Positions 25,230 to 31,772 of a DNA stretch of 64,000 nucleotides are shown here, one piece after another (within the stretch, counting starts at the first letter, position 1; each line of letters opens with the position of its first letter). This DNA is from Microbacterium sp. Au-Mic1. GTDB taxonomy: Bacteria > Actinomycetota > Actinomycetes > Actinomycetales > Microbacteriaceae. The position numbers and the translations under genes are program-made. The notes below the pieces were generated by a model. The model was not told the DNA's origin. It saw nothing but the letters and a program-made list of their open reading frames with translations, and made no database searches. The stretch covers positions 1-64,000 of the forward strand of contig NZ_JAJTTF010000016.1 of NCBI RefSeq assembly GCF_021341785.1. Direction: 5' to 3'.

Positions 25230-26222
25230 TCAAAGCCAGATCCGGCGCGTGCCGCGCGGAGTGATCGCGAAGGCGCGCAAGAAGGCGGCGAATCCTCCGA
25301 CCGAGCTGACCTCGTCGGAGCCCACTCGAGCCACACCCCATCCGGTACTGCCGCGCACCCAGTCCTCCCGCTTCTTCTCCTCGAGGATGACCTGGCCAGG
25401 AGCCAGGTCCCCGGCCAGCTCCGGATCGAGATACTTGCCGATGCCGTCGCACTCCAAGAACGTCCGCTGCACATCGAGGCCGATGTCCATCCAGTAGGTC
25501 TTGAGGTTCGGACCAGGAACGGGCACCTGCACGCGTGGCCGGGCGAACCCGAGTTCATGCAGCCGGTAGCGCGTCACGCTCTCGAGCGGTCCTTGCGCGC
25601 GGCCTTCGGCGATCGCGATCAGTTCGCGAGCTTGACGGATCCCGCGCGCCCCCGGCCTGCGGGCACGCTCCTCCAGTTGCCCGCGCATCGCATCCTCAGC
25701 CGCTGCATCGAAGTCCCAGGGAACGCCCGCGACCTGCGCCAGCGCTGCGTCCACGACGGCGAGTGCGGCGGGAGGCGGCAGCGATCGGGCCAGATCGTAC
25801 GCAGTGCGGAGGAGGCTCGTGCAGCGGATCCCCTCCACGACGACGATGTCGGACTCCGCGAGCTCTCCCTCGTGACGGAAGAGGTCTCGGGCACTGTGCC
25901 GGTCGACCGAACCCAGGATGACGTGCGCCGACCGCGGCGTCCACCGGTAGAGCGGAAGACGCAGAAGCGCCGCGGCGGACTCGTGCGAATACACAGGATC
26001 CGATCCCGATGCGGCCATCCACGTCGCCACCACCAGCGCCTTGTGACGGGACTCAGGCCACAGCCCGTGCCAGAACGTGGTGGGAAGGTACCAGCCTCGA
26101 CGGACCCGGTGCAGTTCCCCGGTGGACAGCGCACGTTCGATCGCACGTCCGCTCACCCCGCGTTCCAGATCCTTCCTGGAGAGCAGATTCTGCCGGAGCT
26201 CATCGACCGAACAATGGCGCAT
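25230..26222 (-). CDS. AbiEi-like antitoxin domain / DUF559-like protein
   Basis: 330 residues. The N-terminal 90 residues (VDELRQNLLSRKDLERGVSG, then ALSTGELHRVRRGWYL) look like the winged-helix domain of type IV AbiEi antitoxins, and the middle carries SHESAAALLRLPLY and GIRCTSLLRTAYDLARSLP, common in that group. The C-terminal part (YWMDIGLDVQRTFLECDGIGKY, with EEKKRED after it) resembles a DUF559/Vsr-like endonuclease fold in which DIGL...ECDG...EEKKR could supply acidic and Lys residues. ATG 26222 is the best start, with GGTGG nearby. Function is unproven, and no toxin gene is adjacent. The flanking repeats and isolated position suggest an acquired gene. Confidence 0.7.
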   Translation of the reverse strand: MRHCSVDELRQNLLSRKDLERGVSGRAIERALSTGELHRVRRGWYLPTTFWHGLWPESRHKALVVATWMAASGSDPVYSHESAAALLRLPLYRWTPRSAHVILGSVDRHSARDLFRHEGELAESDIVVVEGIRCTSLLRTAYDLARSLPPPAALAVVDAALAQVAGVPWDFDAAAEDAMRGQLEERARRPGARGIRQARELIAIAEGRAQGPLESVTRYRLHELGFARPRVQVPVPGPNLKTYWMDIGLDVQRTFLECDGIGKYLDPELAGDLAPGQVILEEKKREDWVRGSTGWGVARVGSDEVSSVGGFAAFLRAFAITPRGTRRIWL

Positions 26223-26608
26223 GGATCCACCGTGCCTTTTGCGCAGGTATCGCAGACCTCTCCTCACGGATCCGGTGCACTTGCTCGTTCCGGCGCCGGA
26301 TGTGGAGGACCACTGCATCGCGCGTCCGCTCATCGGCGCACGGGCCCCGAGCCACCCTCTTCCTACCGAACCTCCCCCGTATACGCAGAGCGAAACGGGG
26401 TGGCTCGAGGCAAAAGGGGTGGCTCGGCATCATCGGCGGCGTCGTTGGCCGCGACCCGAGTGCGCGAGGCGGTGCGCTCGGCGCCGGCGTGCCCGCGTGC
26501 CCGCGTGGCCGTCCCGGAGCCCGCCCGAGGCGCGCGGCGCCGGCCTCGAGCTCGGTCCCTGCGGCGTGCCAGGGCGCCGGCGTCGGCGGGCGGAGGTAGC
26601 CTCGATGA
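26223..26608. other. Intergenic region with repeats, no gene seen
   Basis: 386 bp between two divergent genes. It holds the repeat at 26348-26426 and a likely -10 box TAGCCT at 26597-26602 for the nuclease gene. Open frames here lack coding character, and I see no RNA gene. Confidence 0.6.
26348..26426. repeat. Repeat unit on the 5' side of the DUF559-like gene
   Basis: CGAGCCACCCTCTTCC (26348-26363) faces two inverted units GGGTGGCTCG (26398-26407 and 26417-26426), the latter pair separated by AGGCAAAAG. Same motif as at 25129-25207. Confidence 0.75.
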
Positions 26609-27286
26609 GTGACCCCGGAACTCGAAGCGCGCATCATCGCGGACTCCCGCGATCGGGTGGCGTGGCTGCGGGCCAGGGCGCGCGGGATCACCGCCACGGA
26701 CGTCGCCGGACTCACGAGCGACACGTCGATCGCCCGCGCGGCGGATGCCAAACTCGGCGCGGGACCGCGCTTCGGCGGCAATGCCTACACCGACCACGGT
26801 CGGCGTCGCGAGCCGGAGATCGCCGCTTGGGTCGCCGCCACGCACGGGATCATGCCCTCGTCCGCACTGTTCTGCGCCGAGGTCGAGAAGCGCCACCTGG
26901 CCACCCCGGACGGCATCGTGCAGGAGTCGGACGGTCGAGTGCTGCTCGCGGAGATCAAGACCACCAACAAGTCGTGGCGGTCCATCCCCCGCACCTACCT
27001 GCGCCAGGTGTGGTGGCAGCAGCATGTGCTCGGCGCCGAGCGGACGCTGTTCGTGTGGGAGGAGCATGACGAATTCCGCCCGATCCACGACGAACCCAAG
27101 TCGGTGTGGATCGACCGCGACGATCGCGAGATCGGCCGCCTGGTCGGACTCGCCACGCGCCTGATCGACGAGCTCTACCACCGCACGACGGGTCAGACGC
27201 CTCCCCGGCCGGCACCGGCCGCGCCCAGCAGCCGGGATGCGCTGCGCGAACGCGACATGTTCCGGGCCCTCGCCCTGGCGGAGTGA
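26609..27286 (+). CDS. YqaJ-type viral recombinase / lambda exonuclease-like nuclease
   Basis: 225 residues. The N-terminus RVAWLRARARGITATDVAGL and the later GNAYTDHGRRREPEIAAWV match the YqaJ domain (PD-(D/E)XK fold, 5'-3' exonuclease of phage recombination systems). Catalytic candidates are Asp in LATPDGIV, Glu and Lys in LAEIKTTNKS, and the YLRQVWWQQHVLGAER helix follows. GTG 26609 is chosen because TAGCCT lies six bases upstream; an overlapping ATG at 26605 is in the wrong frame. No single-strand annealing protein or other phage gene is nearby. Confidence 0.88.
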   Translation: MTPELEARIIADSRDRVAWLRARARGITATDVAGLTSDTSIARAADAKLGAGPRFGGNAYTDHGRRREPEIAAWVAATHGIMPSSALFCAEVEKRHLATPDGIVQESDGRVLLAEIKTTNKSWRSIPRTYLRQVWWQQHVLGAERTLFVWEEHDEFRPIHDEPKSVWIDRDDREIGRLVGLATRLIDELYHRTTGQTPPRPAPAAPSSRDALRERDMFRALALAE

Positions 27287-27356
27287 ATCGAGGGGCGCAG
27301 GATCCGCAGCGGATCCCGCTCCGTCCACGGCGTCGAGCGCTCCGCGGCGAACATGG

Positions 27357-27899
27357 TCAGCTCCCGTTCGCGAACCCGCACGTGGGGCTGTTCAGGATGG
27401 GCTTGGTGTAGGAGAGCGTCGACACCGTCGGCGATGCCCAGCCGGTCCACGCCTTGGTGCGCACGTTGGAGCTGAACGACTCGCCCAGCAGGCCGCCCAG
27501 CAGGCCCGACAGCAGGCTGCTGGTGAACGTGGTCGTGTAGACGCCGTTCGCGTCCGGCCCGGTGGTGGGCACCGCCTGCCAGGCCGTGCCCGCGATCTGC
27601 CACTCGGTGTTGGCGGCAGCCGTGAAGCCGGAGTACGGCGCGGTCTGCGCCGACCACTTCCACGTGACCACCATGATGTTGCCGCCGAGCAGCGCGCTTC
27701 GGCACGTCGTCACCGCGGTGATCTGCGGCGGCACCAGCCGCACCGCGCTGACGCCGGTTCCTCCCGCGAATTCGGGATCGGTGTAGGACGCGTCGGTCTG
27801 CGGCAGCGGCGGGGCGAACAGGATCAGCCCCAGGACGAGGACACCGAGGGCCGCGAGCACTCCGTGGATCGCCTTGTGCCGCCCGCCCGCCCGCGACAT
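27357..27899 (-). CDS. Exported protein, probable third SipW-type substrate
   Basis: 180 residues. One N-terminal hydrophobic helix (VLAALGVLVLGLILFAPP) is followed by DASYTDPEFAGG, which resembles the ASWNDGEYATG region just after the signal helix in the two upstream substrates. The rest is Ser/Thr-rich with two cysteines (TTCRSAL and PTCGFANGS) and many Trp-containing strands (VTWKWSAQT, TEWQIAGTAWQAV), suggesting a small secreted beta domain. It overlaps the LPXTG gene (TGATG) and is the last gene of the operon. I do not recognise the family. Confidence 0.75.
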   Translation of the reverse strand: MSRAGGRHKAIHGVLAALGVLVLGLILFAPPLPQTDASYTDPEFAGGTGVSAVRLVPPQITAVTTCRSALLGGNIMVVTWKWSAQTAPYSGFTAAANTEWQIAGTAWQAVPTTGPDANGVYTTTFTSSLLSGLLGGLLGESFSSNVRTKAWTGWASPTVSTLSYTKPILNSPTCGFANGS

Positions 27900-28540
27900 C
27901 AGTCGTCGCCTTCCCGCCGACGGCGCGCAGCGACGACGAGCATCCCGGCAGCGGCGATGACGAGCACGCCTCCCACCACGAGAAGAGGCACCGGGATCGA
28001 GCCGCCCGTCGCAGGAAGGGAGCCGGCCGAACCGGCACCGACCTGCACGCTGTCCCCGAATCCGTCTGCGAGCACCCTGACCCGCGTGGAGGCGCCGCCT
28101 TGTGCGTCCCGTCCGACCTTCACGTCGAGACGCAGGTGAGCGACGGTGTCCGACGACATCGCGTCGATCGGCACCGCGCTGCCGTCTCGGGGCACACTCC
28201 AGTCCGTGCGCAGGACGCGCGCTCCGGACGCGCAGGTCCCGCCCTGCCACGGCTCCTCGCACATGCGCACATCTGCGACGATCGGCGCCGTACCAGCGGC
28301 ACTGACCGCGAGCCGCACCGTTCCGGGATCCGGAGCGTGCGCGCTGACCACCAGATCCCAACGGACCGCCTCTCCCTCCCCCATCGCTGCAGCCGTCGAC
28401 CAGTCCGCACTCGACACGATCCGCAGGTACTGCCCCTGCACGGTCTCGGTCACAACCGCGGCATGCGCCGGTGCCACGGGGAGTACCCCGAGGCATCCTG
28501 CCAGCAGGGCTGTCGCGACGAGCCGGATCCGTTTCGTCAT
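27899..28540 (-). CDS. LPXTG cell-wall anchored protein
   Basis: 213 residues. A Sec signal peptide ends at about APAHA, the body of about 140 residues has two cysteines (RMCEEPWQGGTCASG) and a beta-rich look, and the C-terminus has the sortase signal LPATGG, a hydrophobic helix and an RRRREGDD tail. It should be covalently attached to peptidoglycan by a sortase, which is not encoded in this window. It overlaps the signal peptidase gene by four bases (ATGA) and the downstream gene by one base, so it is co-translated with the SipW-like set. Confidence 0.88.
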   Translation of the reverse strand: MTKRIRLVATALLAGCLGVLPVAPAHAAVVTETVQGQYLRIVSSADWSTAAAMGEGEAVRWDLVVSAHAPDPGTVRLAVSAAGTAPIVADVRMCEEPWQGGTCASGARVLRTDWSVPRDGSAVPIDAMSSDTVAHLRLDVKVGRDAQGGASTRVRVLADGFGDSVQVGAGSAGSLPATGGSIPVPLLVVGGVLVIAAAGMLVVAARRRREGDD

Positions 28541-29148
28541 GAACCCTGGTCGTCCCCGGTCGCCGCGGGAGCATTCCGAACCCGGCGGCTCGTCCGGGGC
28601 CAGAACGCCCAGATCACCAGCGCGGTGGCGCCGAGGGTGAGTCCGCCCAGCACGAACGGGTTCCCGAAGGCGACGATGACGGGCGCCAGGCCCGGGATCG
28701 CGAAGCGCACGATCCGCACCGTGCTGACCGGGTAGGGAGCGGGATCGTCCTGCGCATTGGCGTCACCGCGCAGCGTGATGAGCCGCTCGGTCGACGATGC
28801 ACCGTCCTCGACAGCGCGCACCCGGTGTGTGACGGGCAGCTGGCCGGGACGGTCCACCGTCACCACGTCGCCGACGTGCACCTGACCGGCCGGGATCTGC
28901 TGCACGATCGCGACCGACCCCGCAGGGATCGTCGGAGACATGGATCCGGTCCGGAACATGATGAGCGTGATGTGCGCAGTGAAGGCCAGCACAACCAGCA
29001 CGATGCAGATCAGGCCGGCGAGCGCGGCGATCCACAGCAGCACTTCGCTCAGCACGCCCCGCGCCTTCGGCCTGGGCCGCGGTGCGCCGGTGTCCGACTC
29101 TCGCCGTGCGCGGCGGGTCAGAGGTGCCGGGGTCGTCGCCTGGGTCAC
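28537..29148 (-). CDS. Signal peptidase I, SipW/ER-like
   Basis: 203 residues with a helix near 35-60 and another near 165-190. The catalytic Ser69 is in RTGSMSPTIPAGS. The second catalytic residue is His108 in PVTHRV instead of the Lys of ordinary bacterial signal peptidases, the mark of the SipW/archaeal/ER type, followed by TLRGDANAQDDP. In Bacillus SipW processes TasA and TapA; here the two upstream genes encode similar exported proteins, so it is very probably their dedicated peptidase. It lies 30 bases after the second substrate gene and overlaps the next gene. Confidence 0.93.
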   Translation of the reverse strand: MTQATTPAPLTRRARRESDTGAPRPRPKARGVLSEVLLWIAALAGLICIVLVVLAFTAHITLIMFRTGSMSPTIPAGSVAIVQQIPAGQVHVGDVVTVDRPGQLPVTHRVRAVEDGASSTERLITLRGDANAQDDPAPYPVSTVRIVRFAIPGLAPVIVAFGNPFVLGGLTLGATALVIWAFWPRTSRRVRNAPAATGDDQGS

Positions 29149-29178
29149 GATCCTTCTCCTTCTCGTGCTTCCGCGAGA

Positions 29179-29841
29179 TCAGCTCGACGTCGCGGCGAAC
29201 TGCCATGTCTGGGTCAGCGCCAGCCCCTGCGCCGCATTGCCGACCGTCGAGGGCATGGCGATCGCGAAGCAGTAGTTCACCTGATTCCCTCCGTTGGCGG
29301 AGAGGGTCTGCGATCCGGCCGCCGACGTGCTCAGCGCCGCGCCGTCAGCGATGACGACGGTGGATCCGGCGGCGGCGTAGTCGGTGGCCGAGGCGCACTG
29401 GGCGGCTGTCACGGTCTTCACTCCGTAGGTGAGGTAGTCGGCGAGCGTACCGGCGGCGTAGGTGCTCGCGGTGAGCTTGACCGTGCCTGCCACCGACGGG
29501 TTCGCGGTCTTCACACTGAACAGCGCGTAGACCGTCTTCCCCGGCGCGAGCGCGGCCGCATCCGCCGCGGCGGCGAAGGTCATCGCGATCGCGGTCCCGG
29601 CCGTCGAGTGACTCGCGAAGCTCGTGCCGTTGATGCTGCCGACGACGTCGAACCTCCCGGCCGTGAACGAGCCTGTCGCGTACTCGCCGTCGTTCCAGCT
29701 CGCGAGCGTAACGGTGGCGCCGACGCCCAGCACCAGCCCGCCGGCGAGGACCGCCCTGATCCGCCTCAGGACGAGCCCACGCCGGCGCGGGCGGAGGCGG
29801 CGACGCGTCGTCACGACGGTCGTGGTCTCCCCGGGACGCAT
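29179..29841 (-). CDS. SipW-dependent-type (alternate signal) exported protein 2
   Basis: 220 residues. A long Arg-rich N-terminus (TTRRRLRPRRRGLVLRRIR) precedes the signal helix VLAGGLVLGVGATVTLASW and NDGEYATGSFTAG, the signature of the alternate-signal exported families linked to SipW. The mature part is Ala/Thr/Ser-rich with two cysteines (AAQCASA and VNYCFAIAM) and ends LTQTWQFAATSS. It is a paralogue of the gene just upstream, four bases away. Likely a secreted fibre or matrix component by analogy with TasA/camelysin (inference). The start at 29841 is the closest ATG; GTG codons a few residues later are possible. Confidence 0.88.
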   Translation of the reverse strand: MRPGETTTVVTTRRRLRPRRRGLVLRRIRAVLAGGLVLGVGATVTLASWNDGEYATGSFTAGRFDVVGSINGTSFASHSTAGTAIAMTFAAAADAAALAPGKTVYALFSVKTANPSVAGTVKLTASTYAAGTLADYLTYGVKTVTAAQCASATDYAAAGSTVVIADGAALSTSAAGSQTLSANGGNQVNYCFAIAMPSTVGNAAQGLALTQTWQFAATSS

Positions 29842-29845
29842 GGGA

Positions 29846-30469
29846 TCAGCTCGACGTGGCCGTGAATGACCAGGTCCCGGTCGCAGCCCCTCCCTGGGTG
29901 AGGGAGGACTTGGCGGTGGCGACGAAGCACAGCTGCGCGGCGGCACCCGCGGTTCCTGCCGTCGCGCCCTTGGCGAGGGCGACACTGGATCCGGCGGTGA
30001 AGGTCGTGAGGTCGGTGCCCGACGCGACGAGGGTTCCGGTCGTCGCGGTCGCATCGCAGGTCGCGGCGGGGGCGATCGAGTAGACCGAGTAGGAGACGTT
30101 CGCCGCGTTGGCGCCCGTCCCGGTTCCGGTCGACGCCACGAGCGTCGCATTGTTGGTCGTCGTGCTGTCCAGGCGCACCCAGAACGGCGCGTAGACGACG
30201 TCGCCCGGCGAGAGGTTGCTGAACGGCGCGGTGAAGCTCAGGGCGGCGGCCGTGTCGCCCTTCGTCACGTTGTGGTTCGTGAAACCGGCCGTCGCGGACG
30301 TCGTGGATCCCTCGAGGTTGAACGAACCGGCGGTGAACGTGCCGGTCGCGAACTCGGAGTCGTTCCAGGCCGCGAGGGTGATGGCCGCGCCGACGCCGAG
30401 GACGAGGCCACCGGCGAGCACGGCGAGGACCTTCCGGCGGTTGCGGGTGGTGGGTGTCACGGTGTCCAT
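29846..30469 (-). CDS. SipW-dependent-type (alternate signal) exported protein 1
   Basis: 207 residues. The signal KVLAVLAGGLVLGVGAAITL is followed by AAWNDSEFATGTFTAGSF, nearly the same as in its paralogue downstream. The mature region has the two cysteines (AATCDAT and AQLCFVAT) and ends TGTWSFTATSS. AAAGGA lies six bases before the ATG at 30469, while the frame runs on upstream to 30571 without coding character. First gene of a five-gene operon, with its own promoter at 30507-30535. Confidence 0.9.
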   Translation of the reverse strand: MDTVTPTTRNRRKVLAVLAGGLVLGVGAAITLAAWNDSEFATGTFTAGSFNLEGSTTSATAGFTNHNVTKGDTAAALSFTAPFSNLSPGDVVYAPFWVRLDSTTTNNATLVASTGTGTGANAANVSYSVYSIAPAATCDATATTGTLVASGTDLTTFTAGSSVALAKGATAGTAGAAAQLCFVATAKSSLTQGGAATGTWSFTATSS

Positions 30470-30506
30470 GAGAATCCTTTGCATCGTGTGGGACCTGATG
30501 TCTCCC

Positions 30507-30535
30507 ATACTGGATTCCGGAATACCGGTTGACAA
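30507..30535 (-). promoter_or_regulatory. Promoter of the SipW-like operon with central palindrome
   Basis: Minus strand -35 TTGTCA (30530-30535), 17-bp spacer, weak -10 CAGTAT (30507-30512). The spacer holds the palindrome ATTCCGGAAT (30514-30523), a possible operator. Confidence 0.5.
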
Positions 30536-30629
30536 GACCACTGAACAGGTCTTCAGGCTTCCTTGACACAACCTTGAGGAGCTGGCCGAGGAACCCTGCG
30601 CTGAGGATGGAACGTCTCCGCGGCGGCCG

Positions 30630-31772
30630 CTACTCCGCAGGTGCGAGCGCGATCACGGGCGCGAGGGCGTCCCGGCCCACGGCGATCGCGGGGCCCGCTG
30701 CATCGACCAGCACACCGCTCATCTCCGGCTGCTGCACGAGCACGGCGCCGATCTGCTCGGCGGTGAACGGCAGGGGCTGGTCGCCACGGCCGAGCGCGAT
30801 GACTTCGAGCGGGTGGCTGAACAACTGCAGGTAGCGCGCGCCGTCGGCGGTGTGCGCCTCGGCCACACCGTACTGTCCGTCGCCGTCGACATCGCTGACC
30901 GCCACCCAGAGCCGGGCCGTGGTCAGCGCCTCGGCCACGCGCGCCTCGGAGTCCGCCTCGCGGGGCGCCGCGAGCAGGGCCTTGACCGCGAACGTCGGAT
31001 CCGCCTCCTCCAGCGCCTTCTGCAGGATCTCCGACGGGAACACCACCCGGTGCGGCTCGGACGCGTTGTCGATGATGAGGCCGGCGAACGGACCGTCGAT
31101 GACGTTCTGGTACACCGCCTGCACGGGCTGCACGACGGCCGAGGTCTCGGTCGGATCCTCGTCGCCCTGCTGCACGGAGTCGCGGACGGCGGCGGCCGAG
31201 CTGAACGCCAGCATGAAGGAGTTCTCGCCGTCGTTGACGACGGCGATGGCCAGGGGCTTGCCCTCCTTGATCTGCTCGCCGGCATCTCCGCTCACGCGCA
31301 GGAACAGGTTGCCCTGGAGCGACTGACGCAGCACACCGAGCAGCTCGGCCTGGCTCGCGTCCTCGCCGAGCATGGCGAGGGCCTCGCGCAGCAGCACGTT
31401 GTCGGGCATGCCCGGGATCGACTCGGTCGGCTCGGGCGGATCCACCGGGGCCAGTGGAAGCGGCGGACGCCCCGGCAGCGTCGGCGGCGCGGCCGGCGCC
31501 ACAGGCGTCTCGTCCACGACGGGGTCGATCAGGTCGTGGCCGGCCTCCGGCGTCTCAACGGGCGGGGCGACGGCAGGACCGGAGGGAGAGCCCAGGCCGC
31601 GGAAGGCCTGCACCGAGACGTTGACGACGGGAGCGACCGCATCGGCGGACTCCCCCGGGCCGGCCTCGGCCGTGCTCGAAGAGCCGTCCTCGGCGACATC
31701 CTCCGCGGCGGCGGGAGCGGACTCCGGCGTGACGTCGTCGTCCTGCTTCTTACGGCGCGAGAAAAGGCCCAT
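30630..31772 (-). CDS. SseB family protein
   Basis: 380 residues. The first 120 are acidic and then Pro/Ala-rich and probably disordered. The C-terminal 250 residues hold two SseB-like modules, the first around NVLLREALAMLG...LFLRVSGD and the second around AVSDVDGDGQYGVAEAHTADG and FSHPLEVIALG. SseB proteins are broadly distributed and poorly understood (named from an enhanced serine-sensitivity locus). No Shine-Dalgarno is present; TAGGCT (31779-31784) lies six bases before the ATG, so expression is probably leaderless. Confidence 0.82.
   Translation of the reverse strand: MGLFSRRKKQDDDVTPESAPAAAEDVAEDGSSSTAEAGPGESADAVAPVVNVSVQAFRGLGSPSGPAVAPPVETPEAGHDLIDPVVDETPVAPAAPPTLPGRPPLPLAPVDPPEPTESIPGMPDNVLLREALAMLGEDASQAELLGVLRQSLQGNLFLRVSGDAGEQIKEGKPLAIAVVNDGENSFMLAFSSAAAVRDSVQQGDEDPTETSAVVQPVQAVYQNVIDGPFAGLIIDNASEPHRVVFPSEILQKALEEADPTFAVKALLAAPREADSEARVAEALTTARLWVAVSDVDGDGQYGVAEAHTADGARYLQLFSHPLEVIALGRGDQPLPFTAEQIGAVLVQQPEMSGVLVDAAGPAIAVGRDALAPVIALAPAE

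Follow-up and report, generated by a model that had tools for sequence, protein, structure and literature searches.

The window analysed here is a stretch of 64,000 nucleotides from the actinobacterium Microbacterium sp. Au-Mic1 (contig NZ_JAJTTF010000016.1, positions 1 to 64,000 of the forward strand), the minus strand of which carries, at 27357-30469, a SipW-like surface operon of five tightly packed codirectional genes, P1-P2-P3-P4-P5. All five had been placed here by a first-pass annotation made from the DNA letters alone. As the successive intergenic gaps are 4, 30, -4 and -1 bases, the genes are likely to be co-transcribed. No sigma-70-type promoter was matched in 27100-30800, and the single terminator-like match in that interval, at 30131-30147, is on the plus strand, opposite the operon.

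The first two genes, P1 (29846..30469, minus strand; 207 amino acids, aa) and P2 (29179..29841, minus strand; 220 aa), code for fibre-subunit-like paralogues with 41% identity. They carry the alternate signals that the annotation had ascribed to them: against TIGR04088, the model of the SipW-dependent signal with a cut-off of 19, P1 scores 35.5 bits and P2 31.0 bits, with predicted cleavage at TLA/AWND (residues 33/34) and TLA/SWND (residues 47/48), respectively. Each TasA subunit of a fibre uses its first mature residues (28-38) to complete the one that follows it, as described in the available part of PMC9674648. When the families of P1 (36-member alignment A3) and P2 (39-member alignment A4) were compared with TasA by hhalign, the register was kept from mature residue 1, with an E of 0.0084 for P1 (best of 20 shuffles 0.13) and 0.013 for P2 (best of 20 shuffles 0.30). 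The corresponding stretches, AWNDSEFATGTFTAGSFN in P1 (30317..30370, minus strand) and SWNDGEYATGSFTAGRFD in P2 (29647..29700, minus strand), are on this basis predicted donor strands. Since P1 and P2 align in register with TasA in this way, the pattern that the annotation had noticed as common to P1, P2 and P5 would represent a cleavage site combined with a donor-strand region. Alignments A3 and A4 exclude L105 (a P1 row) as well as L062 and L081 (single-copy rows), seven further P1/P2 rows for which a script found no motif or start were omitted, and the rows of sets S1 and S2 were chosen by a pattern containing T, an aromatic residue and D, such that their 100% columns arise partly by construction.

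P3 (28537..29148, minus strand; GTG start, 203 aa) is a SipW-like type I signal peptidase with two membrane segments, which at 64.1 bits exceeds the cut-off of 51.85 of TIGR02228. All 43 of its relatives share with it the motif TGSMxPxI followed downstream by THR, which supply Ser69 and His108 and bear out the earlier description of a Ser-His signal peptidase; we take Ser-His in place of Ser-Lys to be the SipW-type dyad. With the Bacillus SipW equivalog NF046067 it scores 31.4 bits, under the cut-off of 190. In the whole genome there is a single match to TIGR02228 (E<=0.001) and there are two to TIGR04088 (E<=0.1), all of which lie within the operon.

P4 (27899..28540, minus strand) combines a Sec-type signal (AHA/AVV), a P2-like domain and a C-terminal sorting signal, and it is a candidate wall-anchored base. 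The annotation rightly called it an LPXTG protein, inasmuch as it ends in LPATG (28004..28018, minus strand), a hydrophobic segment and RRRR, and lies above the cut-offs of both PF00746 (26.5 bits, cut-off 20) and TIGR01167 (19.6 bits, cut-off 15.9). Its relatives end in LA-x-TG or LP-x-TG in 38 of 41 cases (19 LATTG, 8 LAATG, 5 LPATG) and in LA-x-SG in two, with the motif not found in the remaining row; none of the 41 has a SipW motif. Sortases of class E and class C are encoded in the genome, both outside the operon. Class E sortases prefer LAXTG. The class C enzyme, which is of the pilus type (G000:C19:28985-29362; L109), could be a sign of a separate pilus built by a sortase.

The domain of P4 is homologous to the core of P2. 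The P2-P4 profile comparison with hhalign covered 95 columns with an E of 7e-5 and 63% probability, against 0.2 in the best of 40 column shuffles, and P1 matched P4 in the same register with an E of 0.0053 (shuffles 0.041 at best), while no relation to P4 was detected by the same procedure for P3 as a control (0.22 and 0.34) or for P5 (0.55). These values depend on the size of the P4 set, the enlargement of which from 42 to 78 rows took the E from 0.12 to 0.0053 for P1-P4 and from 0.002 to 7e-5 for P2-P4; 40 shuffles were run on the larger set and 30 on the smaller. P4 against TasA alone gave an E of 0.16. The P4 domain is about 23 residues shorter than the P2 core at its N-terminus. Because 25 residues precede [LM]-x-[PE]-G, a motif that the two share in the alignment, in the mature window P4 as against 50 in P2, and because the profile match begins at column 23 in P4 as against 46 in P2, P4 is without the N-terminal stretch that serves as donor strand in TasA.

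The last gene, P5 (27357..27899, minus strand), codes for a protein of 180 aa with two conserved Cys and a putative Ig/FN3-like domain, the predicted cut being at TDA/SYTD (residues 37/38; we number the site with -1 at residue 37). The mature N-terminus, SYTDPEFAGGTGVSAVRL (27735..27788, minus strand), is predicted from alignment column counts to form a donor-like strand, by analogy with residues 28-38 of TasA in the accessible portion of PMC9674648. The three named relatives, at 81-86% identity, are all Microbacterium records, and no NCBIfam or Pfam family matched the window protein at E<=1. The first-pass annotation had proposed P5 as a third, hidden substrate from its motif, which is present as TDA/SYTDPEFAGG. 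That this is more than a chance resemblance emerges from a 44-member alignment of the family (A1), which has A(-1) in 44, an aromatic residue at +2 in 44, E(+6) in 42, D(+4) in 41 and T(-3) in 40 members; A1 excludes L088, which has another class of peptidase, and the start of L050 was shifted upstream by hand. As these rows had been gathered with a model that included the signal, we also used a less circular model of the mature domain only, from residue 58, on the same loci. It recovered 41 open reading frames (ORFs) of the genus, 39 of which have the strict motif T-x-A-x-[FWY]-x-[DE]-x-[ED] upstream; of the other two, L079 is an overlapping frame of another member and L102 has a loose form of the motif only. 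The background was provided by all other ORFs of the set, which hold 9 strict motifs in 770,566 residues, or about 0.0008 per 70 residues, and one of the nine (L078) itself adjoins a second peptidase class. In the L078 stretch, two SipW-type operons of unlike class occupy the two strands. A model of 78 P1/P2-type signals, run on 4,643 ORFs, gave window P5 3.2 bits (E about 18); once P1/P2-type ORFs and duplicates of the window were removed, the 14 best in the ranking were all P5 relatives. Hence, P5 is best read as a conserved third candidate substrate of SipW type. An iterative P5 search drifted into P1/P2 via the signal and was set aside for the one-round model and the mature-only test.

None of the 44 P5s of A1 matches TIGR04088, whereas four of the nine P5s from outside the genus that were submitted to NCBIfam, out of 20 order-level loci read, pass it (21.1, 30.5, 26.9 and 23.9 bits). 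P5 is for this reason best read as a SipW-type family of which the Microbacterium branch has drifted outside the model, mainly by an insert resembling P-x-x-Q-x-T-[DE]-A between the hydrophobic stretch and the cut. As for the mature domain, Pfam fn3 matches 2 of the 44 members (best 3e-5), and the VIA rows for P5 include Ig-like, FN3-like and ear-domain entries with Z up to 5.5, TapA being absent from the 50 listed; an Ig/FN3-like domain is our best guess. The NCBIfam matches of the P5s include no TapA model.

To trace the distribution of the system, we examined stretches fetched around P5 or TIGR02228 hits, 60 from the genus and 20 from the order, and fractions of these are consequently not frequencies in the genus or order. 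All five genes occur together in 36 of the 60 genus stretches, with the gene order of the window in 34 and P1-P2-P4-P5-P3 in the other two (L087, L091); P3 and P5 are both present in 41, among them L088 with the other peptidase class. Of 297 genomes of the order, 47 have a match to the P5 model, and 18 of the 94 genera are represented. The best match spans the greater part of the model in 36 of these genomes, from 12 genera, and little beyond the signal and N-terminus in 11, where the proteins may be other SipW-type substrates. TIGR02228 is present in 35 of the 36 genomes with a long match as against 243 of the 297 overall, and the exception (G335, L132) is interrupted by a contig end. A peptidase of the same type lies within 9 kb at 17 of the 20 order-level P5 loci. 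The same set of genes is found in further families of this order. At one order-level locus (L146) the P5 match is on the strand opposite P1, P2 and a fused P3-P4.

A single open frame joins P3 and P4 in 6 of the 60 loci from the genus (5 of the 36 complete ones), 10 of the 20 order loci (L135-L137, L141, L143-L147, L149) and 10 of 25 loci in the family of genome G349; this family set and the order set have genomes in common, and three of the ten (G217, G311, G382) are genes already counted in the latter. P3 and P5 form one open frame in 7 of the 25 loci of that family (L157, L162, L167, L168, L170, L172, L174), and at the junctions T-x-A is kept, with A, S or V in the next position and F or W after that. 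In L150, the same gene as L162, the P5 signal is by hydropathy a third membrane segment of the peptidase. As several genomes show fusions, sequencing error is unlikely to lie behind them. The fusions point to joint action of the partners, and those of P3 with P5 to cutting in cis. One may go further and suppose that the dedicated peptidase is physically joined to the assembly partners of a sortase-anchored actinobacterial donor-strand fibre, a P3-P5 polypeptide being cut in cis at its internal T-x-A in some lineages and P3 being joined to the acceptor base P4 in others, such that processing, initiation and wall attachment would take place at one membrane spot; we offer this extension as a speculative idea that is on the doubtful side.

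Taken together, we posit with moderate confidence that the operon specifies a wall-anchored surface fibre of the TasA or donor-strand type. P3 would, very probably, cut the SipW-type signals of P1, P2 and P5 at T-x-A / [AS]-[WFY]-x-D-x-E. By the match with TasA, each freed mature N-terminus of P1 and P2 would then enter the groove of the next subunit, and the two paralogues would co-polymerise. P4, which has the P2 core, the ordinary Sec route of export, the sorting signal and no donor segment, would on these grounds serve as a terminal acceptor tethered to the wall, with the class E sortase as the likely enzyme. As P5 has the same N-terminal segment on a different, probably Ig/FN3-like domain, it would donate only, either as a TapA-like initiator or as a tip at the end distal to P4. 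The first-pass annotation had predicted three secreted proteins, one peptidase and a wall anchor; the three candidate substrates, the peptidase and the anchor are well supported by conservation, synteny and the natural fusions, while the kinship of P4 to the fibre subunits and the recurrence in other families had escaped it.

A number of observations weigh against this interpretation. The conserved segment from +2 to +18 could serve recognition by the peptidase alone, and the signal of window P5 is recognised by no model on its own. At the level of the order, 9 of the 15 ORFs found by the mature-only model have the strict motif, as do none of three in loci of the other peptidase class; two of the 20 order-level loci (L142, L148) have no class-A peptidase in the stretch, and in the genus a P4 match is missing beside the P5 of L068 and of L104. 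PF12389 (TasA/camelysin) does not match P1 and gives P2 11.7 bits against a cut-off of 22.5; it has no match genome-wide at E<=0.001. By hhalign, homology of P5 to the one TapA sequence used was not detectable (E 0.18, with the two misaligned), nor was its match to TasA significant (E 0.54). The sequence profiles of P1 (A3), P2 (A4) and P5 (A1) found no relevant solved structure among PDB sequences. The AF2 models, built from six sequences for P1 (P1 and P2 together) and four for P5, are weak, with mean pLDDT of 60 and 53, respectively, and Foldseek returned no match for either at E<=0.001. The P1 model is a beta-sandwich with ten-residue means of 64-88 from residue 81 on. On the side of a fibre, its 50 listed VIA rows include TasA twice (Z 6.6 and 6.4) and type 1 fimbrial proteins five times (Z 6.1-6.2), but the match to TasA 5OF1 (Z 6.6, 3.9 A, 126 residues) is tied with unrelated rows and below the best of them (Z 7.2). 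Finally, one open-access literature collection with partial coverage yielded no experimental work on any member of the operon.

A rival idea is that there is no fibre at all, only three secreted proteins with one dedicated peptidase, their shared N-terminal segment being an extended recognition site and nothing else. Such an arrangement would account for the occurrence of the same segment on unrelated mature domains, in that the profile of P5 matches those of P1 and P2 over the first 18 to 46 columns only and that of P4 not at all. It would leave a protein with the fold of P2 and a sorting signal needless, if P1 and P2 were merely released, and the segment of P1 and P2 matches in register the donor strand of TasA, as that is delineated in the part of PMC9674648 at hand; we therefore consider it unlikely. 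Still less probable, in our estimate, is that P5 merely adjoins the SipW-like gene and is processed by the general signal peptidase I, with which T-x-A is also compatible and with which the failure of TIGR04088 on the P5s of A1 (0/44) would agree. This would not be expected from single frames of peptidase and P5 in 7 of 25 loci, from relatives with signals above the TIGR04088 cut-off (4/9), or from the conservation of D(+4) and E(+6) as in P1 and P2.

The precise part played by P5 in the proposed fibre is more evenly poised. It is quite possible, if short of an even chance, that it is a fibre-associated adhesin at the tip and neither a chaperone nor an initiator: few of its columns are conserved outside the signal, and the P5 of L051 (2454-3374, minus strand) has a C-terminal F5/8 type C domain (6.5e-21), which might suit a tip or tip adhesin. 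This added domain is found in 1 of 44 P5s only, and the available text of PMC10151520 proposes that the filament is started by TapA, in which a TasA-like N-terminus precedes a complete Ig domain.

The comparison with the Bacillus TasA-TapA-SipW system, drawn in the first-pass annotation, is apt. Like the B. subtilis tapA-sipW-tasA operon, that of the window has a SipW-like peptidase and fibre-type subunits with the mature N-terminus [AS]-aromatic-x-D (accessible part of PMC9674648), and P5 is a further candidate substrate that resembles TapA in its N-terminus and probably in having an Ig-like domain (available text of PMC10151520). The TasA and TapA letters were verified against 8AUR and 6QAY. 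Unlike the B. subtilis operon, it has two paralogous subunits and an LPXTG/LAXTG protein related to them, homology between P5 and TapA went undetected, and relatives show fusions of the peptidase with P4 or P5. The SipW-TasA-CalY-CapP system of B. cereus likewise has two co-assembling TasA-like subunits and a third secreted assembly protein, and the model of PMC13082335, as far as the accessible portion goes, has SipW process its TasA, CalY and CapP alike. Three substrates for one SipW are thus not new in themselves. In contrast to P5, CapP is described there with DUF4047 and repeats and no Ig/FN3-like domain, and the system as sortase-independent. The Clostridium perfringens sipW-bsaABCRSD operon, in the available part of PMC7395162, is alike in the SipW-dependent secretion of a polymer-forming protein and further putative secreted proteins; it differs in that BsaA has no predicted LPXTG, in that the polymer was unaltered in a srtB mutant, and in a two-component regulator, of which the P1-P5 operon has none. 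What is new relative to the Bacillus precedents is the overlooked third substrate class, the subunit-related protein with a wall-sorting signal and the natural peptidase fusions. A partial open-access library held no SipW paper on Microbacterium and none on TIGR04088 or the family names, and among the matches listed there for actinobacterial SipW, TasA or camelysin names (partly the best 20 and best 10 of many) or for fusions, no title or abstract describes the operon.

The operon is flanked by a convergent YqaJ-like gene (26609-27286) and, on its other side, by an SseB-domain gene (30630-31772). Farther off, at 25230-26333 (minus strand), lies an ORF of 367 aa that matches AbiEi_4 below threshold (21.2 bits, cut-off 25). 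Elsewhere in Microbacterium there is a further SipW-type peptidase class, represented by the 30 genus loci with the highest TIGR02228 scores (L017-L046), which were scanned in 1.5-kb flanks and not counted as P1-P5 operons; small motif-bearing proteins adjoin part of these, and three (L026, L037, L039) have P5-like mature domains. Stretches with class-B peptidases (L061, L069, L070, L084, L085, L086, L108) contain ORFs with T-x-A-A-W-x-D-like signals, which suggests that these are further unannotated substrates.

The experimentally described SipW-dependent fibres of the papers cited above, as far as those texts were available, are from Bacillus and Clostridium. If our interpretation is correct, a SipW-type fibre with a subunit-related, wall-anchored base would extend to soil and plant actinobacteria. 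The natural fusions of peptidase and substrate would be a direct indication of which proteins the enzyme cuts, and P5 would represent a class of substrates overlooked by current annotation in Microbacterium.

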